From NCBI RefSeq assembly GCF_030815985.1, contig NZ_JAUSXM010000001.1, positions 4,030,001-4,094,000 on the forward strand: 64,000 bases of DNA, read 5' to 3'. Shown one piece after another: positions 1 through 54,701 of this stretch (position 1 is its first letter; each line of letters begins with the position of its first letter). The notes under the pieces were generated by a model. The model searched no databases. It was not told the DNA's origin and worked only from the letters and a program-made list of their open reading frames with translations. Made by a program: the position numbers and the translations under genes. This DNA comes from Paenibacillus sp. W2I17. Its GTDB lineage: Bacteria > Bacillota > Bacilli > Paenibacillales > Paenibacillaceae.

Positions 1-659
1 AATAACGAATTATGGTCGAAAAAATGAAAACAGGACCTGTAGCGGGCCGGATCAGCCGATTTGGACAACAAAACCCAGGCCAGCCTATTGTAGAGCGCCA
101 ATGCTGCCTCTTTTTCCTTCCCTTTATCCTTGCTTACCATTTGTAGATGTTCTTCCAACAAACGTCGGGTCTGATCGGGTGTATCCCTGACAATAGATAC
201 CGGAAGTTTGGGTATGTCCTCAGGATTACTCGCCATCGTTGGATATCGATGAAAAAAAAGCACTACACTTACTCCCCTTAGCTTCTGTCGATACAGGATA
301 TAGTGAATGGCTCCCAGATCCGCAGGGTGAAGGTAGGAAGATACTTCAACCAGAACCCATTTCCGATTACCAGGCGTCCACCCTGATCTTTGGAATCTCA
401 ATAACGCATTTTTACATGCCACAAGATCATCTATTGGCTGAAATGGATTTAGTTGATAGATCAGCGGGAGAGTAGCATACGGATCACCAACCGCAATTTG
501 TATAACCTTATCCTGCCAATGCGTTCTCAGTTTATGAATTTCATGCTTCACCGCATCTGATGTCCCTTCAACAACAAACAATCCAGGTTCATGACTCACA
601 CGAAACCATTTACTTCTCAGATCATGATAATCCGTACTTTCCAGTGAGACAGGCATCAT
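1..659 (-). CDS. Unidentified protein of the lanthipeptide operon, partial at window edge
   Basis: A minus-strand frame stays open from an ATG at 659 to the window edge (219 codons, no stop), so the C-terminus is missing. The start overlaps the stop of the GNAT gene in an ATGA arrangement, which implies translational coupling. The product begins MMPVSLESTDYHDL. It is soluble-looking, rich in Trp, Tyr and His, and has no signal peptide, membrane segment, Walker A or other motif I can name. I do not recognise the family. Position as the fourth gene of the lanthipeptide operon suggests a tailoring, immunity or accessory role, but that is inference only. Confidence 0.75.
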   Translation of the reverse strand, partial: MMPVSLESTDYHDLRSKWFRVSHEPGLFVVEGTSDAVKHEIHKLRTHWQDKVIQIAVGDPYATLPLIYQLNPFQPIDDLVACKNALLRFQRSGWTPGNRKWVLVEVSSYLHPADLGAIHYILYRQKLRGVSVVLFFHRYPTMASNPEDIPKLPVSIVRDTPDQTRRLLEEHLQMVSKDKGKEKEAALALYNRLAWVLLSKSADPARYRSCFHFFDHNSL

Positions 660-1456
660 GAAAGTTCACTCTCTTTCGTGATTCGGCATACGTGTATAAG
701 TTCAGGCACCTGTTGTAAATTCAGTGCCGTCATCAATTGATAACTACCCCGGTTGTTTGCATCAAGTGAAGCTTTAATCCACTGATCCGGATCTGAACTG
801 CACCGATGGAGACCATATGCAGCAAGCCATCGGGCCCATCCTTGACGTTTCGCTTCTGGTATTGTGAATATATGAGCAAGGAGTACACTCCCAAACTCAT
901 CGCTTAACAGGCAGCCCCCGATCTTACTTCCCTCCAGTTCAACAAGCCCGGAACCTTTCAGCAACTTGCCATATACACCCTGATAGATATCTCCGATAGC
1001 TTGACGAGCAGCTTCCCAACTTGGACAGGTAGGATCACTGGCTTGGAGCAAGTGTGCAAGGGAATCCACCTGTCCCTCCGCAGACATCCAAACCGCGTCT
1101 TCATTAGGTATAGCCGGCACGGGAACGTCCTTCAACTTGCCGAAAAATCGATACCGATGGGCAAGAACATCCGCCCGGTATCCAAGCTTCTCCCACGGAA
1201 ATGAGGCAGGAGCAGTTGCATATAGAGAGGACCATGTGATTTTATCCAAAACGGATGACATCCGATCTTCCCAATAAGGATTGGAATGTGCTTCACTCCA
1301 TAAATCCAATGTATACTGCCCTTCACCCTGATCAATTACCATGAACGAAGATAGGCTTTCGTCGTTTCCAGGTTCAACTGCATAATAGCGATCACCCGCC
1401 TTCCCCGATTCGTGCTGGCATTGCGGCAGGATATCAGATATGGATGTTAGCATCAT
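656..1456 (-). CDS. GNAT-family N-acetyltransferase in the lanthipeptide operon
   Basis: The 266-residue protein has a C-terminal acetyltransferase fold. The acetyl-CoA-binding region reads IFTIPEAKRQGWARWL (about 195-210), followed by a motif B-like stretch LDANNRGSYQLMTALN. The N-terminal 150 residues have no recognised motif and may be a second, degenerate GNAT half or a substrate-binding domain. The ATG at 1456 follows a GGGAGGG site by eight bases and lies inside the 3' end of the synthetase gene (23-bp overlap). The next gene overlaps its stop. Family assignment is fairly secure. The substrate is unknown; acetylation of the mature lanthipeptide, or self-protection, are the natural ideas from context. 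Confidence 0.8.
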   Translation of the reverse strand: MMLTSISDILPQCQHESGKAGDRYYAVEPGNDESLSSFMVIDQGEGQYTLDLWSEAHSNPYWEDRMSSVLDKITWSSLYATAPASFPWEKLGYRADVLAHRYRFFGKLKDVPVPAIPNEDAVWMSAEGQVDSLAHLLQASDPTCPSWEAARQAIGDIYQGVYGKLLKGSGLVELEGSKIGGCLLSDEFGSVLLAHIFTIPEAKRQGWARWLAAYGLHRCSSDPDQWIKASLDANNRGSYQLMTALNLQQVPELIHVCRITKESELS

Positions 1457-4178
1457 ACGCTTTTCCCTCCCTGTTATAATCGAAACCTGAATAAACCAGT
1501 GGTTCGGATGTAACAGACGGATAAAACCGGCGTAACAGGAATGTATATATCCCCATATAACCGGTCATGTAATCCGGGGAGAAGGACTCCATGTCCTCCA
1601 GAGGCCACATCCATATGTCTTCCTGTGGATCACTTCGCAATACATACAAGCTCTGTGTATACTCCGCTAGTTTGGTTTCATATCTGCCTGGGAACTTGCG
1701 GTTAGCCAAAAGTAGAAAATCTCCATTGCCTGCAATTCCGTGACACTGCCCAAAAGAAGCAAATACCGTTGCCTGTGCCACTGCATCCGCTGCTTGAAGT
1801 CCAAGTCTGGTACAGAGGGGATCTTGCAAAATATCAGCCGCAGCCATCAAAAATCGACCAATACCCGCCGATCCATTACACCAATGTACCCAGAGTGTAT
1901 CCGGTTTTTCCGGGGATGCAGGCCACAGGCTCACGCCATTCTGTCCTCCATGACTCGTACGATCAAGTGTATCTACAATTCGCTTCACAGCAGAATAGTA
2001 CGATTCCTTTCCTGTACGCTCTGCCAAGGCAAGCAGATAGTATCCGATACCTGTGATGCCATGAGAGAATCCAAGGGAATGATGGCCTTTTTTGTCCGAT
2101 TTATCTTTCACTTTCCACAAACTCAATGATTCATCTGTCTGCTCTTCTTGTTCCAAAATATAAACACCCAGTTCCTCTGCTCTTGCCAGAAGTTCAGGGC
2201 GGCCGCCAATACGGTATATCTCAAGCAGCATTAATCCCAACCCCGCCGCTCCATGACTAATATTGGTCTGTACTGGCTCATGCCGGGTGATTTCCAATGC
2301 CAGATCCTCTGCACGTCGAAGCAACGATGGATCATTTATTCGTTCAGCCGTCTCTGCCATTGCCCAGGGAACAGCGCCATATCCAAAGTATAATGCTACG
2401 GGTGTCTCATCTGGAACGTAAGGGTGATTCGTCCAAATCCATTCCAATACTTCACGTGCATATTGATGGTATTGTCTGTTTTGTGTAATCTGACCAAGTT
2501 GATTAAAACCAAAGATCACCCCTGTCCAGCCAAAGTTGAAATTCGCCGGATGAAACATCTTGCTCATGCTGTTTTCCGGGAACAGTTGCAAGGGGTTATT
2601 AAAATCAAGAGAAGTATACAATGTGTTTACCATACGCTCGGCCTGACGGAGTACTTCTTCTGGCTCCATATTGCATTCGTCCTTCTCTATTACATCCATG
2701 CTTCCTCCTGAATTGACCTCTTGCTGCTCCAGCAATGCAACCAGTGTTTCACGAATTTCTGATAACTCCACATGTCCGCCAGACATGATCTCGATGCCCA
2801 GACTTCCCAAGCCACGAAGCTGTGTATTACTCTGATGATCCAGATAAGCCTGTGCAGCTTCCAGATGGGATTGCCGATATTTCAGATAGGGGTCGATGGA
2901 TGAAGCCATGTAATAGAAGACACCTCCCAGTGCATACAGATCATCCGCATAACTGGATCGCCTGCTGTGCTCACGTCCCCGTGGCACATAGCCCGGAGTA
3001 TGACCGGTCAATGGATCAGCCTTACTCTCATCACTTCTGACATAAGCCAGTTCAAGATCAATCAGGCGTACACTTCCGTCCGTCAGCACAACAATATTGT
3101 TGGGCGTCAGATCATTGATCACAATTCCTTTATCGTGACATTGCTGCACCATATCGAGAATATGTATACCCATCCGATGCATATCCGCCCGGTTGTAATC
3201 TGCGGCTACATGTCTGCGATGGATATATTCACGCAAGCTGATGCTTTCAAAATACTCCAGGATCAGATAGCGATTATTTTCAGTACTAAACAGATCAAGC
3301 GGCCTTGGGGTAACCCCCGTATCCTTCATCAGATCAAGCACGCGATATTCATTATCCAAATAGTTATGAGCAGACCGCCTACCACCGTCTACACGCATGC
3401 GGTAGACCGCTTCTTTCATGACAGCCTGTTCATAGGATGTGCCGGAGATGAGAAATACTCCTCCCTTGCCGGATTTCTTGAGTACGCGTCTCACACGAAT
3501 ATTTCGTATACCAAACTCATTGTTATTGGAATCGGATTGACGAGAAGCAGCCTGGTTCTTCTCCATGGCTTGAATCCGCACTAACTCCTCAGGTTCATTC
3601 ACCCACTCCGGTTTATACCTGCCAGGTGTTCTTCGATCCTCCTCCAGCTTGCCTTCTGGATTCTGGATGGCATACACTTTTGCACCCGAGTACCGGTCAT
3701 AGTAGAAACGATCAGTGAATGCACCATAACGATAAAATACACACTGGCTACCGAGGTATGCCCGATCTGTCGGAATAGCGGGTCCTTTCAGATCGCTTGT
3801 ACATGAATGCATTAGCTCAAGTAACTTCAAGAATTGCTCTTCGTCTCGTGCGTAGATGGTGACACACTTCCCAGTCTGAGGGAGAGGTATGGAACCGTTG
3901 GATGTTTCAATCAGTCTCAGACCGCTGCTCACTACTTTCCATTGCACATCATTTTCTGTGAGAACAGGTGCAATGCGTCGCAGCAATTCAGCTCCTTCCA
4001 CAGGGATAACAGACAGATGAATTTTCCAGCCCTGTGCGGGAAGCCTTAATTCTTCCGGTCTAAAACAAATCCAATGGCCGTCATTCGACCATTGGATGGA
4101 TTGGGGAAGTTCCCGGATTATATGTTCCAAAGCGTTCTCAAAGGCGTCCTTCTTGGGGGTTACGCTTGCGAATTTCAA
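1434..4178 (-). CDS. lanL: Lanthipeptide synthetase, class IV-like (lyase-kinase-cyclase)
   Basis: The 914-residue enzyme dehydrates Ser/Thr of a precursor peptide and adds Cys to form lanthionine rings. An N-terminal lyase-type region (1-220) is followed by a Ser/Thr kinase-like domain (about 230-500) with catalytic-loop INDLTPNN (Asp356) and LILEYF hinge. The C-terminal LanC-like cyclase (about 520-900) has SHGITG (His706), WCNGSAG (Cys767) and QCHGIAG (Cys812-His813). These last three Cys/His are the zinc ligands of LanC. Class III enzymes usually lack them and class IV enzymes keep them, so I call it class IV-like. The start is TTG, nine bases after AAGGAG. The precursor gene lies 118 bp upstream. 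Confidence 0.92.
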   Translation of the reverse strand: MKFASVTPKKDAFENALEHIIRELPQSIQWSNDGHWICFRPEELRLPAQGWKIHLSVIPVEGAELLRRIAPVLTENDVQWKVVSSGLRLIETSNGSIPLPQTGKCVTIYARDEEQFLKLLELMHSCTSDLKGPAIPTDRAYLGSQCVFYRYGAFTDRFYYDRYSGAKVYAIQNPEGKLEEDRRTPGRYKPEWVNEPEELVRIQAMEKNQAASRQSDSNNNEFGIRNIRVRRVLKKSGKGGVFLISGTSYEQAVMKEAVYRMRVDGGRRSAHNYLDNEYRVLDLMKDTGVTPRPLDLFSTENNRYLILEYFESISLREYIHRRHVAADYNRADMHRMGIHILDMVQQCHDKGIVINDLTPNNIVVLTDGSVRLIDLELAYVRSDESKADPLTGHTPGYVPRGREHSRRSSYADDLYALGGVFYYMASSIDPYLKYRQSHLEAAQAYLDHQSNTQLRGLGSLGIEIMSGGHVELSEIRETLVALLEQQEVNSGGSMDVIEKDECNMEPEEVLRQAERMVNTLYTSLDFNNPLQLFPENSMSKMFHPANFNFGWTGVIFGFNQLGQITQNRQYHQYAREVLEWIWTNHPYVPDETPVALYFGYGAVPWAMAETAERINDPSLLRRAEDLALEITRHEPVQTNISHGAAGLGLMLLEIYRIGGRPELLARAEELGVYILEQEEQTDESLSLWKVKDKSDKKGHHSLGFSHGITGIGYYLLALAERTGKESYYSAVKRIVDTLDRTSHGGQNGVSLWPASPEKPDTLWVHWCNGSAGIGRFLMAAADILQDPLCTRLGLQAADAVAQATVFASFGQCHGIAGNGDFLLLANRKFPGRYETKLAEYTQSLYVLRSDPQEDIWMWPLEDMESFSPDYMTGYMGIYTFLLRRFYPSVTSEPLVYSGFDYNREGKAYDANIHI

Positions 4179-4296
4179 TGAGAATCACTCCTTTTTGAAT
4201 AAAGTAAGAGGGGGAGGTACAATTATTTTAGTAATGCGCGAAAATCAAAGACTTATCTTTCAAATGATTCAGTGAATAGAGCGTGTAAAGAAGTTC

Positions 4297-4434
4297 CTAG
4301 CTCTCAACAACAATTGTTTGTGAGCTAGTCCAGCTGCACACTGTACACAAGCTTGTTTCCTCAAACATGTTGTTATCCTCTTCAACCTCTAGTGCCATCA
4401 AATCCTGTACAGATAAAATTTCCTTGTTTTCCAT
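4297..4434 (-). CDS. lanA: Lanthipeptide precursor peptide (LanA-like), 45 residues
   Basis: Translation of the minus strand from the ATG at 4434 gives a 45-residue peptide ending at a TAG at 4297. A GGGAGG site sits eight bases before the start. The N-terminal part, beginning MENKEILSVQDLMALE, is acidic and carries an amphipathic ILSVQDL-type leader segment like those recognised by class III and IV synthetases. The C-terminal part from residue 27 (TSLCTVCSWTSSQT) holds two Cys (30, 33) and many Ser/Thr, suitable for (methyl)lanthionine rings. It stands directly upstream of the synthetase gene on the same strand. There is no GG-type cleavage site, so the leader-removal point is unclear. Confidence 0.88.
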   Translation of the reverse strand: MENKEILSVQDLMALEVEEDNNMFEETSLCTVCSWTSSQTIVVES

Positions 4435-4620
4435 GATATATTACCTCCCATTTGTCTCCCCCTCTTATAAACCAAATTCTACATAAAATTTGATATTCCT
4501 TCTTTTTAATTGAATTATTTTACATAAATTATTTATCAAACCCATTTATTTCGCCTGATCATGTCAAATTACTTGTTTCCTCGGACAAAAAAGAGGCGCA
4601 ATATGACATCAGAATTCAGA
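4435..4620 (-). promoter_or_regulatory. AT-rich probable promoter region of the lanthipeptide operon
   Basis: This 186-bp gap between the MFS gene and the precursor gene is very AT-rich. It includes a CAAATT-N9-AATTTG inverted repeat at about 4472-4492 and several TATAAT-like stretches, but no single clear -35/-10 pair. I infer that precursor transcription starts here. Confidence 0.4.
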
Positions 4621-5892
4621 CTACATCGAGGTCGTTTGTTGCCGGGTACGCTTGCTCCGTTCTTCACGGAAAGGTCGGACAAATAGGCTTGCCATGCCCA
4701 TACAAATAACAAATGTTCCAATCCCCATGTATACCCATGAAGGGTTGTACGTTTCAATGAACCACCCTCCCAGCAACAACCCAAGTGGATTACTAATGCC
4801 ACTCATCAAGACACCCATACTGTTCATGACACGTCCTCTCTTTTCTTCCGGGGTGGATAAAAGAATGGAAGTAACCAAGGGTACATTCACAAGAGCAAGT
4901 CCCATCATCAACAAAAATGAACATGCAATCGCGATATACAGGTTAGGAAACATCGGCATGAGCAGCAAACTTGTGCCGGAAATGAGATAACTGATCAAAA
5001 ACCAGTGAGCGAGCGAGAGTCGTTTGGCATATTTACCACTGAGCAGAGAGCCTGCAATACTGCCAGCGGCAAAGGCTGACTGAAGCAGACCGTAGCCTTG
5101 TGGTCCGGCTTGCAGCACCATATTGGCAAAAATCGGCGTGAAGATGTGCAGTGGCGCACCCGCAAAATTGATAATAGCTCCAAAGATAATGCAGCAGGCC
5201 AAAATTTTACGGGAAAACAGGAATGTAATTCCCTGCATGCTATCTTTAACAAAACCGGTGACTCCTTTTTGTTTCACTACTTTGGTTACAGGGATGCGGA
5301 TAAAGAAAATGGATATGGCGGATAGCAGAAATGTAACGGCATAGATGAACAGGATGGACTGAACGGAGATGAGAGCGATCAATATTCCCCCCAAGGCGTA
5401 TCCAAGCAATTCAATCGTTTTGGAGGAAGAGTTCAGTAGTGCATTGGCTGGAGCTAATTGTTTTGTAGGTTCTGGCAAAATAGCGGGGATGACTGTCTGG
5501 GTTGCCGGATTGAACAAAAAACCAAGGATTGCAATGAGCAGATTGGCTGCGTAAATATGCCACGGAAGCATGGATCCTGTCATGAACAAAAGCGCCAATA
5601 TGCAAGCTACGCCTGCACGCAATATATCTGTCCAGATCAAAAGCTGCTTTTTCGGCAGGCGATCACTGATCGTAGCCAGGGGTATGCCCAAAAAAGCATA
5701 GATCAAGTACGGCAGCATCGGAATCAGCGCAGCAGCAAGTGCCGACTCTGTTAATTGGAGGATATACCACATCGTCGCCATAGAAAATAAAATTTGCCCT
5801 GCGCCAGAAACCAATCTACCAACAAGAAGCACAACAAAAGAAGGAAGGCGCAAAACCGCTCGATAGCTGTCGCCGCGAATTTCATTTTTCAT
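4621..5892 (-). CDS. MFS efflux transporter
   Basis: A polytopic membrane protein of about 423 residues with around 12 hydrophobic helices. The loop after helix 2 reads ATISDRLPKKQLL, matching the major-facilitator loop 2-3 signature, and the overall pattern is that of the drug or siderophore exporter group (MFS_3/DHA3-like). The frame opens at 5937, but the likely start is the ATG at 5892 (MKNEIRG) or the GTG at 5901, both after a GGGAGAGG site inside the 3' end of the regulator gene. Overlap with that gene indicates one operon. It may export the lanthipeptide encoded downstream, because no LanT-type ABC exporter is visible here; this is inference. Confidence 0.85.
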   Translation of the reverse strand: MKNEIRGDSYRAVLRLPSFVVLLVGRLVSGAGQILFSMATMWYILQLTESALAAALIPMLPYLIYAFLGIPLATISDRLPKKQLLIWTDILRAGVACILALLFMTGSMLPWHIYAANLLIAILGFLFNPATQTVIPAILPEPTKQLAPANALLNSSSKTIELLGYALGGILIALISVQSILFIYAVTFLLSAISIFFIRIPVTKVVKQKGVTGFVKDSMQGITFLFSRKILACCIIFGAIINFAGAPLHIFTPIFANMVLQAGPQGYGLLQSAFAAGSIAGSLLSGKYAKRLSLAHWFLISYLISGTSLLLMPMFPNLYIAIACSFLLMMGLALVNVPLVTSILLSTPEEKRGRVMNSMGVLMSGISNPLGLLLGGWFIETYNPSWVYMGIGTFVICMGMASLFVRPFREERSKRTRQQTTSM

Positions 5893-6259
5893 CTTTTTCA
5901 CGCACCTCTCCCTCGTCCGTAACAGATTCATCATCACTAATACGATGCAGACGCGTAACCAAACCTGAATCTCGAATGGTCTGTTGTATCTTGGCTTTTA
6001 CCCGTTCCAGTTCAGCCGTATACTCGCGTATCTCGTTCAATAAGGTCTGATGGGTTCGGATGCCTTCCCTAATCAACATTGCAGTCGCATCAGAACGGTT
6101 TTTGGCTAATTCAAGAAATACTAGCTGATCTATGATATCAATCTCTTCCTGACTTAATCGAACGGAAACAACTCCCTTGGCTCCCGAAAGGTTTTTGTTC
6201 GCCTGCTCCACAGATCGTTCCACCATCTGGTTAAACTGAGCTTTCTGGTCATTGTACAT
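5882..6259 (-). CDS. Ribbon-helix-helix transcriptional regulator
   Basis: A 125-residue protein with a ribbon-helix-helix DNA-binding motif at about 30-70: the strand GVVSVRLSQEE followed by helices IDIIDQLVFLELAK and RSDATAMLIREGI. A charged helical C-terminal half is probably coiled coil. Three in-frame ATGs lie close together. The GGAGG site overlaps the first two, so the third (6259, MYNDQ) is the best start with eight-base spacing. The MFS gene overlaps its 3' end. A perfect inverted repeat between its promoter and its start (6313-6332) suggests autoregulation of the regulator-exporter operon. Confidence 0.82.
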   Translation of the reverse strand: MYNDQKAQFNQMVERSVEQANKNLSGAKGVVSVRLSQEEIDIIDQLVFLELAKNRSDATAMLIREGIRTHQTLLNEIREYTAELERVKAKIQQTIRDSGLVTRLHRISDDESVTDEGEVREKDEK

Positions 6260-6312
6260 ATTCATTTCCTCCATTCTTTACGATTGCACCCGTATATTGT
6301 AATTCGTAAATC

Positions 6313-6332
6313 GTAAATTGGTTTTAATTTAC
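6313..6332 (-). promoter_or_regulatory. Palindromic operator for the RHH regulator
   Basis: A perfect inverted repeat, GTAAATT-N6-AATTTAC, lies immediately downstream of the -10 box of the regulator gene. A site here would block transcription initiation. The match to this regulator is inferred from position. Confidence 0.6.
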
Positions 6333-6360
6333 ATTATACCTGTAAATAAATGGTTGTAAA
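6333..6360 (-). promoter_or_regulatory. SigA-type promoter of the RHH-MFS operon
   Basis: Minus-strand -35 TTTACA (6355-6360) and -10 TATAAT (6333-6338) are separated by 16 bp. The -10 is a perfect consensus. Confidence 0.65.
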
Positions 6361-6362
6361 GC

Positions 6363-6390
6363 AAAAAACCTTTGGATTTATCCAAAGGTT
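6363..6390 (-). terminator. Rho-independent terminator of the GNAT gene
   Basis: Perfect 11-bp stem AACCTTTGGAT/ATCCAAAGGTT with a two-base loop, followed on the minus strand by a run of T. It lies just downstream of the GNAT gene that ends at 6418. Confidence 0.85.
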
Positions 6391-6417
6391 CGCCGAATAT
6401 GTTATTTAACTAGTTCA

Positions 6418-6831
6418 CTAGTCTCCCTGCCTCCACCACATACCCTCCGACTTTGGGCTGGTGTATTCAAATCCAAATTGAGCATAAAGTTGATCAGCCG
6501 GAACATCCGCCAGCAGACTGACCAAACCACGGGCAGGTACTGCTTTACGCAGATAATTCATAATCTCGCTCATGATCAGTTTTCCATACCCCATTCCCTG
6601 AACATCCGGGTGTACAGCAATATCGACGACCTGAAAGAAACAACCTCCATCTCCAATCACTCGTCCCATGCCTATCAGCATATCCTCTTCACGCAGACAT
6701 ACGGCAAACAGGCTATTCGGTAATCCAATCTCTGCCCCCTCCCTACTCATCGGGCTAAGGCCGGCAATCTGCCGCAAGGCAAGATACTCCACCGCTGCGG
6801 GTGGTGTGTGTTCAATATTCACATGATCCAT
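6418..6831 (-). CDS. GNAT-family N-acetyltransferase
   Basis: A 137-residue single-domain acetyltransferase. The acetyl-CoA pocket is VVDIAVHPDVQGMGYGKLIM (motif A, with the Q/R-x-x-G-x-G/A pattern as QGMGYG). The C-terminal YAQFGFEYT is the usual motif B end. The frame is open further upstream, but the ATG at 6831 (MDHVNIEHT) follows AAAGGGG by eight bases and gives the normal family length. The gene is divergent from the membrane protein gene at 6943. The substrate is unknown. Confidence 0.85.
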   Translation of the reverse strand: MDHVNIEHTPPAAVEYLALRQIAGLSPMSREGAEIGLPNSLFAVCLREEDMLIGMGRVIGDGGCFFQVVDIAVHPDVQGMGYGKLIMSEIMNYLRKAVPARGLVSLLADVPADQLYAQFGFEYTSPKSEGMWWRQGD

Positions 6832-6942
6832 GAATTGTGCCCCTTTCTGCTTGAATTCATCTACTTCCTGTGTAATAGTGAGAGAAAGCTTACGTGAAGC
6901 GTGTTTCATGATACGTGAAGTTGGTGCAAAGGAGGAACAAGT

Positions 6943-7830
6943 GTGTTTCAACGTTGGATTGAAGATCTAACATCTCGCTCAGGCGCTGTGGCTGTGCTGT
7001 TTGGAGTCATGGCTTTGCTTCTGGGGATATACATATGGTCTGCCACTGAAGTTCGCCGCAGCCACGAAAGGCGAATGCAAAGGATACGAGATACATTATA
7101 CATAAGTACAGCCCTCTTGGGACAACTTACCATCCAGGAAAATCGGAATCATGAACGATCGGAACACGAACATAACGATCTGATAACAGCAATGTTAGCC
7201 TGCAAAGCTGCATCTTACCTATCCCCTCAGCTACAGGACCAGATCCGGGACTGTATTAAGGATCATGATCCTGCCAGAATCGGACTGATGCACAGAGCAC
7301 TGGAACGGGAATGCACCGTATTATCGGATGAACTCAGCCGGGATACTCATGCAGATCATTGGGGCACAGCGGTCTGGATCATCCTTCGGCCCGTAGCCGA
7401 ACCAGCCGCACTGGCGGCTACAGGGTTTCTGGTTACAGATCTGGTATTTCGTCAGCGGATGTTGGACGTGCCTGTGGACTCATGGGAAAGCATCTTGCCA
7501 TGGATTCGCGCAATTTCCATAATGATCACCATAATATATGGTTACCTGCTCTGGGCCAGCCCACGCCGGGATCGGCCACGTACAGTAACCAAATTGCTCT
7601 CCTTGCTGATCGCGCTATGCTCCTTGCTCCATCTAATTGGACCTGTTGCTGCACCCTACGCCCTTGGATTACAGCTGATTATATTTACTTCGGGCTTCGG
7701 GTTGACTGGGACCCGCTCTCGAAGTGATCGCCCCTACGCAGGACATACGGATCTGGAACCTACGAAGCAAGTCTCTACGGAACTGGAAGGGAATACACGT
7801 CGTACATCTGGTACCAACACCGACGAATAA
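6943..7830 (+). CDS. Hypothetical membrane protein
   Basis: A 295-residue protein starting with GTG seven bases after GGAGG. One membrane helix lies at about 15-33. A charged, probably helical cytoplasmic or external segment follows (35-145). Three or four more hydrophobic helices occupy about 145-255, and the tail is hydrophilic. I recognise no family. It is transcribed divergently from the GNAT gene with about 110 bp between the chosen starts. The upstream frame of the GNAT overlaps this start, which supports choosing the shorter GNAT. Confidence 0.7.
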   Translation: MFQRWIEDLTSRSGAVAVLFGVMALLLGIYIWSATEVRRSHERRMQRIRDTLYISTALLGQLTIQENRNHERSEHEHNDLITAMLACKAASYLSPQLQDQIRDCIKDHDPARIGLMHRALERECTVLSDELSRDTHADHWGTAVWIILRPVAEPAALAATGFLVTDLVFRQRMLDVPVDSWESILPWIRAISIMITIIYGYLLWASPRRDRPRTVTKLLSLLIALCSLLHLIGPVAAPYALGLQLIIFTSGFGLTGTRSRSDRPYAGHTDLEPTKQVSTELEGNTRRTSGTNTDE

Positions 7831-8027
7831 CCTACGCATTCAGCCGCTTCCGTATGATTAAACTTAGATACCCACCTCGATGATACGAGACTCGGCCCTC
7901 CCTCGGCTGGATTTTCACAGATCAGGTCGTGTCTCCTTACTCGGCATGTTATACGATGATGGATGTCAGTGTCCCAAAATTATCGAGTTCCCGTCTGGCT
8001 GATCCTATTGAGTAGTCAGTCGATTTT

Positions 8028-8100
8028 CTAAGGAACTCAGGACGTCTTATATTACGTCTACAGCATCTTTCAAAATTGTAAAGAACCTCAGACACGTTAT
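8028..8100 (+). repeat. Dimeric 23-bp intergenic repeat, copy I
   Basis: Two related 23-mers start 50 bp apart: an a-type unit at 8028-8050 (CTAAGGAACTCAGGACGTCT plus TAT) and a b-type unit at 8078-8100 (GTAAAGAACCTCAGACACGT plus TAT). The same pair with the same spacing recurs at 44731-44803 and, inverted, at 29986-30058. Confidence 0.75.
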
Positions 8101-8149
8101 TTCCCAAAATCGCTTGACAAAAAAGCTCTAAAACGCCGTACATTTCGAT

Positions 8150-8172
8150 ATAACGTGTCTCAGATTCGTTAG
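8150..8172 (-). repeat. Single inverted b-type 23-bp repeat unit
   Basis: On the minus strand this reads CTAACGAATCTGAGACACGT plus TAT, matching the b-type unit of the dimeric repeat. No a-type partner is visible 50 bp away. Confidence 0.65.
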
Positions 8173-8402
8173 CGCTCAGTGCCTGCTCATGCCCTGTTCC
8201 AAGCGCAACTGAGAGGACAACCTCATGTCCCTCCCGTACGAAGCGAAAATTTTCATTGGTAGAGGAAAATAGGAAAATCGCCTTTGCGACGTCCTGATCG
8301 CTAGATCGTATATGCAGCATGCTTCCCTACTCAGGACCTGTTCAGGGCGCCTCGGCTTTAAGTAGGTTTTGAAAGAACGCTCTAAATTTTTCAAGTCTTT
8401 AC

Positions 8403-8443
8403 GCAAAAAGGGCTGAAACTACATTGTAGCTTCAGCCCTTTTC
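8403..8443. terminator. Bidirectional rho-independent terminator
   Basis: Near-perfect stem AAAGGGCTGAA...TTCAGCCCTTT with T-tracts on both sides. It probably ends the SLH-phosphatase transcript on the minus strand. Confidence 0.8.
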
Positions 8444-8533
8444 TATATTACTAATTTTGTCTTGCGAAGAATGATCGGAAGGTTATTCTGTCATCGAAGT
8501 GGCATGTGTGACATTCTTTAGTTCACTTTATAT
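8443..8533 (+). repeat. Palindromic intergenic element, degenerate copy
   Basis: The core GATCGGAAGGTTATTCTGTC is almost identical to the element at 13941-14040 read on the minus strand, and the match continues through ATTCTTTAGTT. The outer arm CTATATTACTAATTTT resembles the terminal repeat of that element. Confidence 0.6.
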
Positions 8534-8551
8534 CATGCATAATTACTTCAC

Positions 8552-11272
8552 TTATTTGGCTACAACATGTGCAATGACGCGGCCCTTTTCGTACGTGACA
8601 GTCACGTCATAACCATCTGCCGTTACACTGTCGAACTCACCTGTAATTCCATTAGCGGTGATTAATGTAATATCTTTGGAACCTTCAATCTTATAGTTGG
8701 ACAAGTCGAGTTTGAGACTTCCTCCATCAATATAGAGTTTTCTGCCAACATTCAGTTGACTATTGTTGTCAGCCACTACCAATTCCAACGTACCGTTATC
8801 CATGGTAAAGTTTCTATTTAAGTTGAGTGCTCCGTCGACATCGACGACAACTGTTCCATTTTCTACATACAGATCACCTGTACCAAAAGCAGCTGCAGAT
8901 TCAGCTACCAGCGTTCCTGCTTGCAGCAATGTTCCGCCAGTGTAGCTATTTTCCCCTGTCAATGTAAGGGTTCCTGTTCCCTTTTTCGTAAGCATTCCAC
9001 TACCGGTGATATCATTTCTCCACCAATCTTGTGCATTGAAGCGCCCTTTGGAAGCGTCCATATCCACAGTTACATTGTTCAAGAATGCGCCGTAGCCATC
9101 CGCAGCCGTGACCAGATCAATTCTACCCCAGCCCTTGGATTCATCCAGTACAGGATATCCAGAGTCAATGGATGTTGTATACAATACTTGTCTGCGTTGC
9201 TCATCTGTTAAATACGGTTGACGTGTTTCTAACAGGGCTTCTGCTCCTTGCGGTACAACTGGAGCCAAACCTTTGGTTCCGGTTTGTGGTAGACCGTAAG
9301 TCATCTTTTCTCTATAGAAGGCTTTATTGGCATCGTGATCTTCCCATTTGTGTTCATCGTAAGCACTCTTGAACGTATAATCCTCTGTTACGGTGTGTGC
9401 ATACTCATACAGACTCATATTTTTTTCCTTGGCTGCAGCTCCAAATACTTCTCCTGCATTCTCATAGCCCTTCTCTAACACTTCTCTGTTCTCAGCCTGA
9501 TTAAGTGCATATGCGGCCATGGCTGTGGATTGTATTCTTCCTCCTATAACATCAAGCGGTGAGTGCATCCCCGCTACGACTCGATTCTCGCCCAACTGAG
9601 CTGCTCTCGTTAACAATTCAGTGAATCGTTCTGGTGTAGCGTATGCCAAAGGAAATACGGATAAGTAAGCTGCACTGGTATGTCCGCTCGGAAATCCGCC
9701 ATCTTTTCCTCTTCCATCCTCAGCGATTCGTTTGACATAAGTTAACGCAGGAATAAGCTTAACGTTGGTTTCGTATTGCTGGTAATGTTTTTCTCCTGTT
9801 GATTTGGTGCCGCCTGAAGCCAAAGGTACTTCTTTTTTCTCACCTTCGCCCAAGGTTTCCCATACAGGCAGTCCTTTGCTGTCAACAACTTCTTTCACTT
9901 CTCCATTGGAATTCATTCTCCACGGTCTAGGGGAAGAGTAGAAATATTTAGAGGGATTAGATGAGGCAGGGATTTTGAATCGAACCAGATCAACTAAATG
10001 GACCAAGTCTGAAAGTTCCGTCTTTGCTTCCCAATCTCCAATGCCTTGGCTTTCATCTTCCACTGTTTCTTCGGTCAATACCACATTCATCTCGTCCACC
10101 GTTCGTTCAACGTTTGTCTTTGGCTTGATGATATCTACATACGTGTTAGCCAACGGACCAAAGCCCTCCATCACGCTATAGATCTTATCTCTTTGGTCAT
10201 CATAATAGGCTGCCAATGTCTCTTCACCTGTGCGATTTTGCGTGACCTTTTCTACATATTTGATATTGGCTTCCCAAGTTGCTTTGTTTCGGATCTCTTC
10301 ATTTGCATATGTTTTCTGATCAGCAACAGCTACGGTTGGATCGTTTTTAAAGCCGTCATAATATGGGGATGGTCCATCTCCATACTTTGCATTCTTTCCG
10401 TCAGCTCCAATTTTGGTTGCCGCTGTTCCATCTCGCCAATCCGCTTGGTTCATGGACCATACTTGATCAAAACCGTCCAAAATATCAATAAACGGATTGG
10501 TTTCCGCAATATTTTTCAAGGTGTCGTCTCCGGCATTGGCTCCGTGCTTCACGGCGGATAACCGAGCTTCATCTGCTGGGGGATTAACATTCAGTACGCT
10601 TGCCGTTCCTTTTGGCTTAGCTGGTTTGGCAGCTGTAGTAGCATCTGTTTCCACAGCCTTAACGAGCGCAGACACCGCTTCGGCACGAGTAATGGAATTA
10701 AGCGGTTTGAAGGTTCCATCTGCATAACCAGAGATAATTTTCGCTGCTGCCGCTCCACCTACAGCTCCCTTGCTCCACGCCGCTATAGACGATGAATCGC
10801 TAAATACATTCGCTGCTGTTTCATTTAACTCCAGATTCAAAATGCCAGCGATCACTTTAGCTGCTTCTTGACGGGTGATCGGATCTTGCGGCTTCATTGT
10901 GCCATCGGTGTATCCATCTATATATCCATTCGCATTTGCAATAGAAATTGCTTCGTAATACCATGCACTCTCAGACACATCGTTAAAGGTAATTTTAGCT
11001 TGTCCGGAATATCCAAAAGCACCGTTTACCAAATTCATAAATTCTGCTCTGGTAATATACGTATTCGGTTTAAATGAATGATCCAGGTAACCTCGAATTA
11101 ATCCTTCATCACCCCATGCTTGAATATTTGCTTCCGCCCAGTGTCCCTTAATATCAGAGAACTGAATCTTCTGATCGGCTGCAAAACTCTTCTCTGCAAA
11201 TGTCGGACCTACCATAGACAACATTAGAAGTAATGTCAGTGACTTTTTAAGTGGTTTTCTCATGGCTTGCAA
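8552..11272 (-). CDS. Cell-wall-anchored SLH acid phosphatase (PAP2 superfamily) with beta-strand repeat tail
   Basis: A secreted protein of about 906 residues. The signal peptide (MRKPLKKSLTLLLMLSM...) is followed by three SLH domains (within about 45-220), which bind secondary cell-wall polymer. The central region (about 270-660) is a PAP2/class A acid phosphatase or vanadium haloperoxidase-like domain with all three motifs: K-x6-RP (KYFYSSPRP), PSGHT, and NRVVAGMHSPLD. The last 150 residues contain GSGMLTKKGTGTLTLTGENS, an autotransporter-associated beta-strand repeat, predicted beta-solenoid. TTG at 11272 lies seven bases after GGGAG; ATG at 11263 is the alternative. The likely role is phosphate scavenging at the surface. 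The beta-solenoid tail is unusual for a Gram-positive SLH enzyme. Confidence 0.88.
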   Translation of the reverse strand: MQAMRKPLKKSLTLLLMLSMVGPTFAEKSFAADQKIQFSDIKGHWAEANIQAWGDEGLIRGYLDHSFKPNTYITRAEFMNLVNGAFGYSGQAKITFNDVSESAWYYEAISIANANGYIDGYTDGTMKPQDPITRQEAAKVIAGILNLELNETAANVFSDSSSIAAWSKGAVGGAAAAKIISGYADGTFKPLNSITRAEAVSALVKAVETDATTAAKPAKPKGTASVLNVNPPADEARLSAVKHGANAGDDTLKNIAETNPFIDILDGFDQVWSMNQADWRDGTAATKIGADGKNAKYGDGPSPYYDGFKNDPTVAVADQKTYANEEIRNKATWEANIKYVEKVTQNRTGEETLAAYYDDQRDKIYSVMEGFGPLANTYVDIIKPKTNVERTVDEMNVVLTEETVEDESQGIGDWEAKTELSDLVHLVDLVRFKIPASSNPSKYFYSSPRPWRMNSNGEVKEVVDSKGLPVWETLGEGEKKEVPLASGGTKSTGEKHYQQYETNVKLIPALTYVKRIAEDGRGKDGGFPSGHTSAAYLSVFPLAYATPERFTELLTRAAQLGENRVVAGMHSPLDVIGGRIQSTAMAAYALNQAENREVLEKGYENAGEVFGAAAKEKNMSLYEYAHTVTEDYTFKSAYDEHKWEDHDANKAFYREKMTYGLPQTGTKGLAPVVPQGAEALLETRQPYLTDEQRRQVLYTTSIDSGYPVLDESKGWGRIDLVTAADGYGAFLNNVTVDMDASKGRFNAQDWWRNDITGSGMLTKKGTGTLTLTGENSYTGGTLLQAGTLVAESAAAFGTGDLYVENGTVVVDVDGALNLNRNFTMDNGTLELVVADNNSQLNVGRKLYIDGGSLKLDLSNYKIEGSKDITLITANGITGEFDSVTADGYDVTVTYEKGRVIAHVVAK

Positions 11273-11626
11273 ATACACGCTCCCATTATGGTAAATTATT
11301 TTTTGCTTCTGCATCTGCAAATGAGTAAGAAAGACTCTATACAGATGTCTGATCTGCCGTTACTGTAGCATTAGGGAGCGTTTCGCATCTATAGAACAAA
11401 TTCCGTTTTATATCAAAATCGTACGTTCCGGAGCTTATATGCCAAGCTAAATGGAGTTAGATACTACATTTATCAATTAAAATACCTACTTTTGTAAACG
11501 CTTTATTAACTGAAAGTAAATTATGGAGTGGGAGTTTGTTAAATTTCGATCAACATGATTTCTAGTCCTCGGCCTGCTATATAATGATGAAGTTGTTTAG
11601 AAACGAGAAATGAAGGGGGAAAAAGA
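11273..11626. other. Divergent intergenic region
   Basis: This 354-bp gap lies between the SLH phosphatase gene and the AraC regulator gene. Apart from the cre-like site at 11493-11506 I see no structured element or gene. Confidence 0.5.
11493..11506. promoter_or_regulatory. Candidate cre (CcpA) site
   Basis: TGTAAACGCTTTAT agrees with the catabolite-responsive consensus TGWAARCGYTWNCW at all but one position. It lies 120 bp upstream of the Cache/AraC regulator, so carbon catabolite control is plausible. Confidence 0.5.
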
Positions 11627-13948
11627 ATGCGTAAGCCATTTCAATCTGTGAGATCCAAGATGGTTCTTTCCTACCTTGCTGTCGTTCTTGTCATTGCACT
11701 TCTTTTCGGCTCCATTCTATACCTCTTCTTCTCCCATCAATACAGCAAAGAGATTCGAATCAATAATCAACTGTCGCTGAAAAGCACTGTCAATTATATT
11801 GAGAGCTCCGTGATCCAGAAGGTGAATCAGGTCTATCTGTCCCTGGCACTCGGTAACGCAGCAAGTATCGACCTAGATAGCTTAAAAGGAAACCATAGCA
11901 AAATCCTGGACATCGAACAGTCCCTCAAAAATATGGTGCAAAATTATTCCGATCTCATTGAAGCTATTCATGTGTACGATACAAAGAACCACTTCATCGT
12001 CTCATCTGTATATGGGCTGATGCTCTATGAGGACACGCCTTCGAGTGTGGATCATACGACGGATTGGATTGCTGCGATGAAAGAGACTCCAGAAAGCTCC
12101 TTATGGATGAAGACTCGCATGGTGCCTCAGGATGCTTATATCGAATCACGGGAACAGGGCAATATGAGCCCTCTAATTTCCTATGTCCATAGTTACCCGT
12201 TTCAATCGTCTGGACAAGACAGTAAGGCCATGATTGCGATTGATATCAAAGAATCAGCGATCAGTCAGATCATTAAAAATATGCTCCCTGCTGACTATGC
12301 TAATACATTAATCATCGATCAGGATGGAACCGTCATTTCTGCCGCGGACAAAACGTTGCTAGGCACCTCCACGGAGGAGAATCTAACGCAGTCGCTCCTT
12401 TCCTATCATTCTTCAGATGAAAGTTTCACGCCTGTATTTAACTATGACTCTCATGTCGTTACCCAAGATCAATTTAAAGGAAATGCATGGCGGATTTACA
12501 CAACCACACCTAATGAAAGCTTCTATTATAAACTGGATAGCTTGAAGGAGATTTCGGTTCTTCTCGGTTTATTGGCTGTTGCGGTTGGAATAGCGATGTC
12601 GTCCATCTTTACCAGGGCCAACTATAGTCCTCTTAAACGAATCATGAATAACATCAAGAGCCGGATGGATAGCCCAACCAGCTTAAAGCAGGACGAATAT
12701 CGGTTCATCGATACAACGTTTAACAGTCTGTCCAATAAAGTTGATAGTCTTGAAGAAACCTTACAGGCCAATCACAGAATGATTAAGCATAGTATTATGC
12801 TCAATATGTTAAATAATCGATTTACACCCGAGGAACTTACGGAACAGCTCCAATCTGTTCACATTTCAATGGCCTACTCTCGCTTCCGTTGCATCGTCAT
12901 TGACCCTGTCAATGAGAAGTGGAAGGATCTGCAGCCACGACAGTTGCAGCATACGTTGTATACGATGATCCAGCAACTGGAGATCGCAGAAATGGATGGA
13001 ACTCAACTGCTGGCAGAGGAATTGCAGGATCACAAAATAGCAGTAATTATCTGTACCAACCAACCCGAAGAACCGCTCTCTGATCACATTGTAGACTTTA
13101 TTCACGCTGAGGCGAGCAGCAGATTTGGTCTGGAATTTGTACTATCGTTAGGCGGATGGGTAGAACACTTCACAAAGATTCACACAAGCTATCATCAGGC
13201 GAATACCCTGATTCGATACAGCTACTTCTTCCCCGAGCAGTCTGCCATTCAGGATCTTGATCTTCTGAACAGGGAAGCCAGCAGTTTGGAAATTCCGGAG
13301 TCATACCTCGTAAACTTTGAAAAGAAATTGCAGATTAGGGATGTGCAAGGTACGGTTCAGGCCATTCAGGAATTGGTCGCGACAATAAAGGAAGGCCCCT
13401 ATTCCGCCGAATACAGTCGGATCATCTTATTAAAAACGGTATCTATTTACGCTGAGTGTATTAATCAGGTGCGCCTGCAACCCGCCGAGGCGAGTTCATT
13501 GAATTTGTACAAGCAATTTTCATTGTTCTATAATATCAACCGCTATTCGGAATGGATGATCCATCTCGTGACCGAATTTGTGATGCATATGGAGAAGCGA
13601 AGCGAGGTACGGAGTGTGGATACCATCTCGGCGGTCAAAGCCTATATTCACGAGCACTTATCGGGCGATCTCACGCTGGATCATGTCTCAGAACAAGTAT
13701 TCATCAGCCCTAAATATCTCAGTAAACTTTTCAAGGAAGAAACCGGGATTGTCTATTCGGAATATGTTACGAACCAGAGGATGGAACGTGCACGAGAACT
13801 CATGACACAACGCGAAATTACAGTTGAGCAGGTCGCGAATACGGTCGGTTACCGTACCCCTGCTTATTTCATTAAGAAGTTCAAAGAAATTCACGGCTGT
13901 ACACCGAAAAACTTCATGCGCAGTCTAATGGAACAGGGATCTATATAG
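11627..13948 (+). CDS. AraC-family regulator with extracellular Cache-type sensor
   Basis: A 773-residue membrane regulator of the type common in Paenibacillus. A membrane helix (about 14-34) precedes a Cache-like extracellular sensor (35-295, with IIDQDGTVIS near its end), then a second helix (about 303-325). A cytoplasmic linker leads to a C-terminal AraC double helix-turn-helix (about 675-765, with LDHVSEQVFISPKYLSKLFK and VEQVANTVGYRTPAYFIKKFK). The ATG follows AAGGGGG by seven bases. Such proteins usually control the adjacent sugar uptake genes; here the only neighbour is the orphan solute-binding lipoprotein. The stop codon lies inside a palindromic repeat element. Confidence 0.9.
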   Translation: MRKPFQSVRSKMVLSYLAVVLVIALLFGSILYLFFSHQYSKEIRINNQLSLKSTVNYIESSVIQKVNQVYLSLALGNAASIDLDSLKGNHSKILDIEQSLKNMVQNYSDLIEAIHVYDTKNHFIVSSVYGLMLYEDTPSSVDHTTDWIAAMKETPESSLWMKTRMVPQDAYIESREQGNMSPLISYVHSYPFQSSGQDSKAMIAIDIKESAISQIIKNMLPADYANTLIIDQDGTVISAADKTLLGTSTEENLTQSLLSYHSSDESFTPVFNYDSHVVTQDQFKGNAWRIYTTTPNESFYYKLDSLKEISVLLGLLAVAVGIAMSSIFTRANYSPLKRIMNNIKSRMDSPTSLKQDEYRFIDTTFNSLSNKVDSLEETLQANHRMIKHSIMLNMLNNRFTPEELTEQLQSVHISMAYSRFRCIVIDPVNEKWKDLQPRQLQHTLYTMIQQLEIAEMDGTQLLAEELQDHKIAVIICTNQPEEPLSDHIVDFIHAEASSRFGLEFVLSLGGWVEHFTKIHTSYHQANTLIRYSYFFPEQSAIQDLDLLNREASSLEIPESYLVNFEKKLQIRDVQGTVQAIQELVATIKEGPYSAEYSRIILLKTVSIYAECINQVRLQPAEASSLNLYKQFSLFYNINRYSEWMIHLVTEFVMHMEKRSEVRSVDTISAVKAYIHEHLSGDLTLDHVSEQVFISPKYLSKLFKEETGIVYSEYVTNQRMERARELMTQREITVEQVANTVGYRTPAYFIKKFKEIHGCTPKNFMRSLMEQGSI

Positions 13949-54255: not shown

Positions 54256-54295
54256 AAAAAAGGACAGAAGAAGGCCTCAGGCCCTCTCTCTGTCC
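54256..54295 (-). terminator. Expression-platform terminator of the glycine riboswitch
   Basis: Minus-strand stem GGACAGA...AGGGCC-TGA-GGCCT...TCTGTCC followed by TTTTTT. Its 5' arm overlaps the end of the second aptamer (AGGACAGAG), so aptamer folding and termination exclude each other. Confidence 0.88.
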
Positions 54296-54545
54296 TCGAT
54301 ACCTGAGAGTTTCACAATCAGCAGTGTCTCACGACAAGGTGCATTGTCTGCAATTACAGACAAGGTCACCGGACTGACTGATCATATACCCCTTGGGTGG
54401 CGCAGTTCGCGCACTCTCCAGAGTTGCGTCCAACGATGGTACATTTACCTGAGAGATTAACCACTGCGCCGGGTGCGCAGCGGCTTGCTCCTTCGGTGCC
54501 TGAACACTAGCCATTTTGCTTGGCTAACCCAGGTCTCTCCCGCTC
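54285..54545 (-). promoter_or_regulatory. Tandem glycine riboswitch (gcvT-type)
   Basis: Two aptamers in series on the minus strand. Aptamer 1 (about 54430-54545) has GGGAGAGACC, GCACCGAAGGAGCAAGCCGC and AATCTCTCAGGTA. Aptamer 2 (about 54285-54425) has CTCTGGAGAGT, CGCCACCCAAGGGGTA and AACTCTCAGGTATCGAGGAC. These are the conserved glycine aptamer cores. With the terminator that follows it forms an ON switch: high glycine should turn on serine dehydratase. Confidence 0.95.
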
Positions 54546-54701
54546 GTTATCATCCGCTTATATTCACTTCCTCGTTCAACTCACATCGAACGTGTGTCTT
54601 CTGTTCAATTGGATCATATCTGGTACATATACTTACAGATTAATATGCTACACATTATATGTCAATAAAAGTGACGTATAATTACCATCTTTATCAACTC
54701 A

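Follow-up and report, generated by a model that had tools for sequence, protein, structure and literature searches.

Class IV lanthipeptide synthetases (LanL), among them CuvL, SgbL, and VenL, carry a lyase, a kinase, and a zinc-dependent cyclase domain in that order. According to the accessible portion of Walker 2020 (PMC7268733), LanLs are found mostly in Actinobacteria and Firmicutes, none of those from Firmicutes having been characterized by then, and the accessible part of a 2025 review (PMC12328550) describes characterization of the class mostly on Actinobacteria. An initial annotation of the DNA studied here called class IV best known from actinomycetes, which is a fair statement with the qualification that the Firmicutes members had already been counted in the 2020 study. 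Here we describe a lanthipeptide gene cluster at one end of a 64,000-nucleotide stretch of Paenibacillus sp. W2I17 (the window; positions 4030001-4094000 of a 7.0 Mb, single-contig genome), to which the adjoining 15 kb beyond base 1 was added. The cluster encodes a precursor peptide (lanA), a LanL-type synthetase, a GNAT-fold protein, a protein with TPR matches, and an S9 prolyl oligopeptidase (POP). Our reading, to which we give a probability of roughly 0.7, is that the block is complete and belongs to a class IV subfamily that is rare and patchy in its distribution, its single conserved product being a peptide with two rings that is probably N-acylated.

The synthetase resembles CuvL, SgbL, and VenL in its domain order, in its zinc ligands, and in scoring higher against the LanL model than against the model for class III enzymes (LanKC). 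The cluster differs from theirs in a score below the LanL cut-off, a branch of its own, another precursor family, and the clustered GNAT, TPR, and POP genes. The best PDB sequence match of the synthetase, at 169 bits, is 8car, which is listed as a Ser/Thr protein kinase and which we take to be CuvL of curvocidin. A CuvL structure paper is cited in the available text of PMC13060382.

The accessory genes have precedents in other classes. An S9 POP is likewise encoded in the lanthipeptide clusters of FlaP and LanPB (PMC10885120; family III 3 of PMC7268733), but these belong to class III in the parts of both sources that were accessible, and FlaP cuts after Pro(-12), whereas the window precursor has no proline. 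GNATs occur in the lipolanthine, goadvionin, and selidamide clusters, and a tandem GNAT fold is also reported for NpuN; within the available text of PMC13060382, which describes N-acylation of the class III microvionin and goadvionins by GNATs, these examples are of class II, class III, or unstated class, while the present GNAT is encoded in a class IV-type cluster. The paenithopeptin and bacinapeptin clusters likewise come from Paenibacillus, and the source genome holds a similar locus at another place (L007, below). They are, however, class III systems with labionin, Q-A-(A/V)-(D/E) leaders, and M16B proteases, as far as the accessible part of PMC8960859 goes, and none of these features was seen in the window cluster. 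In the literature searched, 5.39 million papers with most subscription papers and all supplements outside their scope, the strings CTVCSWT, CTLCSWT, SLCTVCS, LCTVCSW, and SLCTLCS gave no match, and we found no described precursor of this kind, no such five-gene order, and no identical cluster with a known product.

All three domains of the synthetase score above their Pfam cut-offs (RamC_N PF25816, 157.1 bits; Pkinase PF00069, 58.4; LANC_like PF05147, 160.5). Aligned with 13 relatives (14 rows in all), the window protein has His706, Cys767, Cys812, and His813, none of which varies in any row, so that the three-domain enzyme with these four residues is as the initial annotation described it. 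With the NCBIfam models the protein reaches 525.3 bits for LanL (NF038150) and 402 bits for LanKC (NF038151), both under the models' own cut-offs; a match over the LanL cut-off occurs in 1 of 394 family genomes. The HCCH pattern at the four sites is present in 78 of 95 aligned enzymes, including every row of the query clade, a count biased by the fact that most rows were found by the pattern HWCNG, which holds the first cysteine. This alignment omits 13 loci as repeats, one of them (L156) identical to L090 and the other 12 judged by score and length. Ten Paenibacillaceae class III rows, found by hidden Markov model (HMM) and all over the LanKC cut-off, are without the zinc ligands.

Phylogenetically, a split with a Shimodaira-Hasegawa-like approximate likelihood ratio test (SH-aLRT) value of 100 in a 56-row tree sets 15 class III enzymes and three ungrouped rows on one side, with the query and seven class IV enzymes on the opposite side. 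The same split is supported on partial columns, at 100 for lyase plus kinase and 99 for the cyclase. Eight of the class III enzymes are annotated lanKC in plasmid records and seven score over the LanKC cut-off; the class IV enzymes comprise three over the LanL cut-off, two annotated lanL, and two named so in database matches. The trees are unrooted and come from a quick search without bootstrap, and the class IV side is not thereby shown to be a clade. Clustering of the synthetase inside the class III LanKC proteins, the outcome set beforehand as telling against the initial annotation, was not found. Together with enzymes of the Pseudonocardiaceae, Peribacillus, and Ktedonosporobacter type, the query makes up a separate branch. 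The synthetase is on the class IV side and divergent, and the earlier description of it as class IV-like is upheld by the zinc ligands, the two model scores, and the trees.

At E <= 0.01 for the precursor and E <= 1e-60 for LanL, both occur in an identical set of 17 of the 75 same-genus genomes (source genome counted). Compared with the window copy, the 15 other 45-aa copies carry 0-11 synonymous and 0-2 non-synonymous codon changes, with LanL identity going down to 71%. Because it is confined to the genomes that hold LanL and shows so few non-synonymous changes, the precursor is not a chance open reading frame (ORF). A profile of 15 precursors, run against a database of 5.8 billion with 105 candidates scored, returned 36 proteins at E <= 0.01, among them matches from Micromonospora sp. 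B11E3, a Ktedonosporobacter metagenome-assembled genome, and Shouchella lonarensis. In the 47 distinct precursors obtained from these 36 proteins and the 15 profile rows, L29, C30, C33, and T36 are present without exception. Position 34 is Ser/Thr in 46 and Gly in one, and position 31 is Ser/Thr in 45 and can be Val or Ala. A third Cys is found in 6/47 and a Lys in the core in 6/47, and the leader motif DL-x5-E-x-D is common to the precursors. Annotation pipelines miss this peptide: the window precursor has no NCBIfam match at E <= 0.1, ten others have none at E <= 1, and the named copies are labeled hypothetical or uncharacterized protein.

The conservation of the cluster extends beyond the phylum. 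When 16 other synthetase loci were searched with the Paenibacillus precursor, a match was found just upstream of LanL in all six loci from Pseudonocardiaceae (phylum Actinomycetota), namely those of Actinokineospora (four tandem precursor copies), Actinophytocola, and four Lentzea. The Hazenella locus gave a weak match (E 5.7e-4) and the other nine none. All six Pseudonocardiaceae loci have the order precursor-LanL-GNAT-TPR homologue-POP and share the precursor core LC(T/S)xC(S/T)xT, with LanL only 29-33% identical to that of Paenibacillus (best segment). In one Lentzea locus (L061), the genes after LanL encode, in order, a GNAT, a 521-aa protein without a Pfam TPR match, an S9 POP, and an ABC transporter. 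Downstream ABC signatures are likewise present at L062, L089, and L099, and none was seen at L060 and L081 by a simple LSGGQ search. A profile of the six Pseudonocardiaceae GNATs aligns with the Paenibacillus GNAT profile (hhalign E 7.5e-7, probability 91.8), as do the six 521-aa-type proteins with the Paenibacillus TPR profile (E 2.4e-6, probability 88.9). A pattern scan within 2.5 kb of LanL found an LCxxC[STA]xT peptide in 17 of 75 LanL loci (11 Paenibacillus and 6 Pseudonocardiaceae) and none in the other 58. In the family of the Lentzea flava genome, the precursor profile matched 6 of 249 genomes drawn, which are the same six loci. The evidence for Chloroflexota consists of two proteins with names, P0018 and P0156, and of the equal length (39,570) of the longest contig for P0017 and for P0161, which is no proof of one contig.

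It is this cross-phylum conservation, out of sight of the initial annotation, that gives the cluster its real interest. An almost identical core in Paenibacillus and Lentzea, accompanied by helper genes arranged alike, suggests a single, definite molecule serving a single, definite purpose. With genes for all three helpers (POP, GNAT, and TPR-type protein) alongside LanL in both phyla, leader removal and tailoring can now be tested directly for class IV.

Within the genus, the order regulator-MFS-lanA-LanL-GNAT-TPR-POP, followed by a gene for an NAD-binding protein, is kept in 16/16 relatives. At L039, in a genome listed as 89% complete, the MFS, LanL, GNAT, and TPR genes are in several pieces and look interrupted. 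Named carriers are P. amylolyticus, P. xylanexedens, P. polysaccharolyticus, P. tundrae, and P. barcinonensis, with several species without a name and one strain labeled P. polymyxa. The NAD-binding flank gene is present in 74/75 genomes, and the corresponding site was read in 10 of the 58 genomes without LanL. The whole block, regulator-like gene included, is gone from seven of these ten; two (G012 and G015) keep the regulator and MFS genes, and one (G071) keeps both plus a POP fragment (residues 166-583). Homology resumes at one point, about 122 bp before the flank gene, in all seven empty sites. This single shared breakpoint and the joint absence tie the POP and MFS genes to the cluster, and relatives mostly have either all of the block or none of it. 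The MFS gene (E <= 1e-120) is found in all 17 genomes with LanL and in 3 of the 58 without it. The distribution within the genus is patchy. On a tree of the flank gene from 27 genomes, in which 6 rows have 27% of the columns, 10 forks are open, and the 10 LanL-negative rows were chosen from 58, the pattern needs 8 changes, little below the shuffled-label mean of 8.3. Plasmid carriage was considered and rejected, as a search of 72,556 plasmid records (E <= 0.01) matched neither of two precursors.

The genes form an operon-like row on the minus strand that runs past base 1 of the window, which therefore starts inside the row (Table 1). Their order is regulator-like gene, MFS, lanA, LanL, GNAT, TPR protein, and POP, the last lying outside the window. 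The first two genes share 56 nt, the MFS gene ends 186 nt ahead of lanA, and lanA is separated by 118 nt from LanL, which starts with TTG behind the ribosome-binding site AAGGAG. The ORF of LanL overlaps that of the 266-aa protein by 23 nt, the latter overlaps the TPR ORF by 4 nt, and the TPR ORF overlaps the POP ORF by 19 nt. The 45-aa precursor gene ahead of the synthetase and the chaining by overlaps to a GNAT and a further protein are thus as first reported, the GNAT now having support from its predicted fold. In that report the class IV-like assignment stood, and the two absences did not. It had reported neither a LanT-type exporter nor a leader peptidase beside the synthetase, a claim that arose because the window edge cuts the operon; the MFS gene lies directly upstream of lanA, and the POP gene is past the edge. 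By eye, and from its sequence only, the 130-aa regulator-like protein has a ribbon-helix-helix look.

Table 1. Features of the lanthipeptide gene row, in window coordinates unless marked L006.
Feature	Position	Strand	Basis or remark
Small regulator-like protein, 130 aa	5882..6274	-	First gene of block; weak NF058631 match, 24.5 bits (cut-off 160)
MFS transporter, 438 aa	4621..5937	-	PF07690, 116 bits; candidate exporter or immunity pump
Precursor LanA, 45 aa	4297..4434	-	Predicted core from near Ser28, SLCTVCSWTSSQTIVVES (start of core predicted)
LanL-type synthetase, 914 aa	1434..4178	-	RamC_N lyase 21-200; kinase match 265-438; LanC cyclase 550-889
Tandem-GNAT-fold protein, 266 aa, candidate acyltransferase	656..1456	-	Predicted structure and fold matches
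Protein with TPR matches, 488 aa	1..659 (whole gene L006:14193-15659)	-	Cut at window edge
S9 prolyl oligopeptidase (POP), 585 aa	L006:14211-12454, outside window		Begins about 0.8 kb past window edge; last in row
RNA: 12-bp long-range stem around lanA	4205..4467 (arms 4467-4456 and 4216-4205)	-	Fold prediction

The 266-aa protein has no Pfam or NCBIfam family at E <= 0.1. Its AlphaFold model (predicted local distance difference test, pLDDT, 89.6) has GNATs as top fold matches, and its homologues form 13 clusters, of which those with an organism name are all Paenibacillus. A possible acyl-CoA loop (Q/R-x-x-G-x-G/A) is KRQGWA, read by eye in A2, with Lys replacing Q/R. The POP contains an S9 domain (PF00326, 68.6 bits), and its G-x-S-x-G serine appears as GVSYGA, aligned to an acylaminoacyl peptidase.

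A biosynthetic route can be proposed from this gene content. LanL would bind the leader through the DL-x5-E-x-D motif, phosphorylate the core Ser/Thr residues, and eliminate the phosphate. The zinc cyclase would link the two cysteines, Cys30 and Cys33, to dehydrated side chains; Ser/Thr34 and Thr36 are the likeliest partners, since position 28 is Asn and position 31 Val or Ala in some precursors, and Thr31 is an alternative partner. The POP may remove the leader, probably close to Ser28; cleavage following Pro27 would be compatible with the 20 precursors that have this proline and not with that of the window. The GNAT would acylate the freed N-terminus; lysine acylation is unlikely here because Lys is rare in the core (6/47). 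Cut just ahead of Ser28, the core would have a calculated mass of 1928.886 Da, less 18.0106 Da for each dehydration and with 42.011 Da added by an acetyl group. For the TPR protein a scaffold role is a guess. The product would be exported by the MFS transporter, and in Lentzea by the ABC transporter.

Lanthipeptide cores often vary widely between related strains. The near constancy of the present core from phylum to phylum is suggestive of a signaling role or a conserved target rather than of a fast-changing bacteriocin. A bolder proposal, to which we give somewhat less than even odds, is that Bacillota and Actinomycetota at least, and probably also Chloroflexota, use the constant set lanA-LanL-GNAT-TPR-POP to make one nearly fixed lanthipeptide with the core [SN]LC(T/S)(V/L)C(S/T)(W)T. 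It would be N-acylated, and the constraint from its target, or from its role as a signal, would be strong enough to keep the core almost unchanged even as the enzyme diverges to about 30% identity. To our knowledge such a product would be the first N-acylated class IV lanthipeptide.

Several observations weigh against the assignment of this block to a class IV subfamily with one conserved, N-acylated product. The synthetase scores under the NCBI curated LanL cut-off (525.3 against 650 bits), which is taken here as a naming threshold and not a biochemical feature, and some database names label homologues class III. The core is not fixed in the genus: the most divergent locus (L040, with LanL at 50-52% identity) has a 43-aa precursor with the core SLCTYCSVT, differing by 14 synonymous and 13 non-synonymous codon changes and reading CTYCSVT at the motif. 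Position 28 is Asn in 6/47 precursors (Ser in 41/47), and the motif frequencies are partly selected, since the profile itself holds the motif; the 75-locus scan is less biased, yet its loci were picked by patterns such as HWCNG. Pro27 is present in only 20/47 precursors and the window precursor has no proline at all, so that cleavage after Pro by the POP is not a general rule. The N-terminal half of the TPR protein is poorly modeled and its actinomycete counterpart has no Pfam TPR match, and the MFS gene also occurs without LanL in three genomes. The precursor profile matched 7/398 genomes of a class sample and 2/398 of a phylum sample, all from its own genus, these samples being drawn from larger groups, and in the family of Ktedonosporobacter rubrisoli it matched 0/29 genomes in a scan without a positive control.

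That the row is an ordinary class IV bacteriocin cluster, with the GNAT, TPR, and POP genes as unrelated neighbors and a precursor conserved only through species closeness, would fit the patchiness of the block within the genus, the two genomes in which regulator and MFS persist without the other genes, and the remark, in the accessible portion of Walker 2020 (PMC7268733), that acetyltransferases and other enzymes encoded beside class IV genes may not be part of the clusters. We consider it unlikely, since the three helper genes are in the same order in six Actinomycetota loci at 29-33% LanL identity and have gone with LanL in nine of the ten LanL-negative genomes read, the tenth keeping only the POP fragment. 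Less likely again is a CxxC peptide without thioethers, in which LanL only dehydrates and the cysteines form a disulfide or a metal site. The C-x2-C spacing in 47/47 precursors (partly search selection) would agree with such a peptide, as would the disulfide that paenithopeptins have besides labionin in the available text of PMC8960859. However, the cyclase zinc ligands are kept in every query-clade row of the HCCH alignment, and Thr36 (47/47) and Ser/Thr34 (46/47) are about as conserved as the cysteines.

The least credible alternative, which we regard as very improbable, places the cluster in class III, with a LanKC enzyme that forms labionin or lanthionine independently of zinc and has its zinc ligands by coincidence. 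The three-domain architecture is shared by class III, the LanKC model does match at 402 bits, and some databases name homologues so, but the HCCH ligands are kept, the window core as read lacks the labionin motif S-x2-S-x3-C, and the trees set the 15 class III enzymes apart at SH-aLRT 100, 100, and 99. Class III membership was rejected on zinc ligands, HMM scores, and trees.

The RNA around lanA is predicted to form a stable fold enclosing the gene (z -4.36 against 100 shuffles). Its closing 12-bp stem, UAAGAGGGGGAG / CUCCCCCUCUUA in the mRNA, is paired in 151 of 156 cells in 13 loci, with covariation almost nil. As speculation, the fold could stabilize the lanA segment or set the lanA:LanL ratio. 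A sigma-70-like site with 11/12 matches lies ahead of the regulator-like gene; 8 such sites occur in the stretch, against 10.0 expected by chance. A terminator-like hairpin with 12 pairs and a T-rich tail lies at 4069-4097, about 80 nt inside the LanL gene, and is possibly a chance occurrence, four such hairpins being seen and 4.2 expected.

Other lanthipeptide loci were noted in the course of this work. The locus L007 of the same genome (6263001-6283000) contains at 5298-12641 a class III-type locus with an M16 peptidase pair and, as read by eye, ABC-transporter-like ORFs. A RamC_N plus kinase ORF of 479 aa and a LanC ORF of 404 aa lie there in different overlapping frames, as a split or frame-shifted LanKC, followed by three tandem short precursors. 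Two of these have QAVD and one HAVE at that place, reminiscent of paenithopeptin clusters. In Paenibacillus sp. BJ-4 (L090, 8878-11523; identical to L156 of G046), a LanL-like enzyme scoring 430 bits with the LanL model and 321 with the LanKC model falls on the class IV side yet has HASH for HCCH, two zinc-ligand cysteines missing in the alignment. The Hazenella coriacea locus (L063) encodes a LanL over the NCBI cut-off (765 bits), a possible distant precursor holding SGCTLCTHTCGG at about 8790-8990, and a downstream TPR protein at 11451-12134 that matches the Paenibacillus TPR profile (E 1e-10). Two adjacent synthetase genes on opposite strands are found in one Paenibacillaceae genome (G365:C4:129645-135741), of which the one scanned (L138) is class III. 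Elsewhere in the window, an ordinary tandem glycine riboswitch (Rfam RF00504) lies on the minus strand at 54288-54552.

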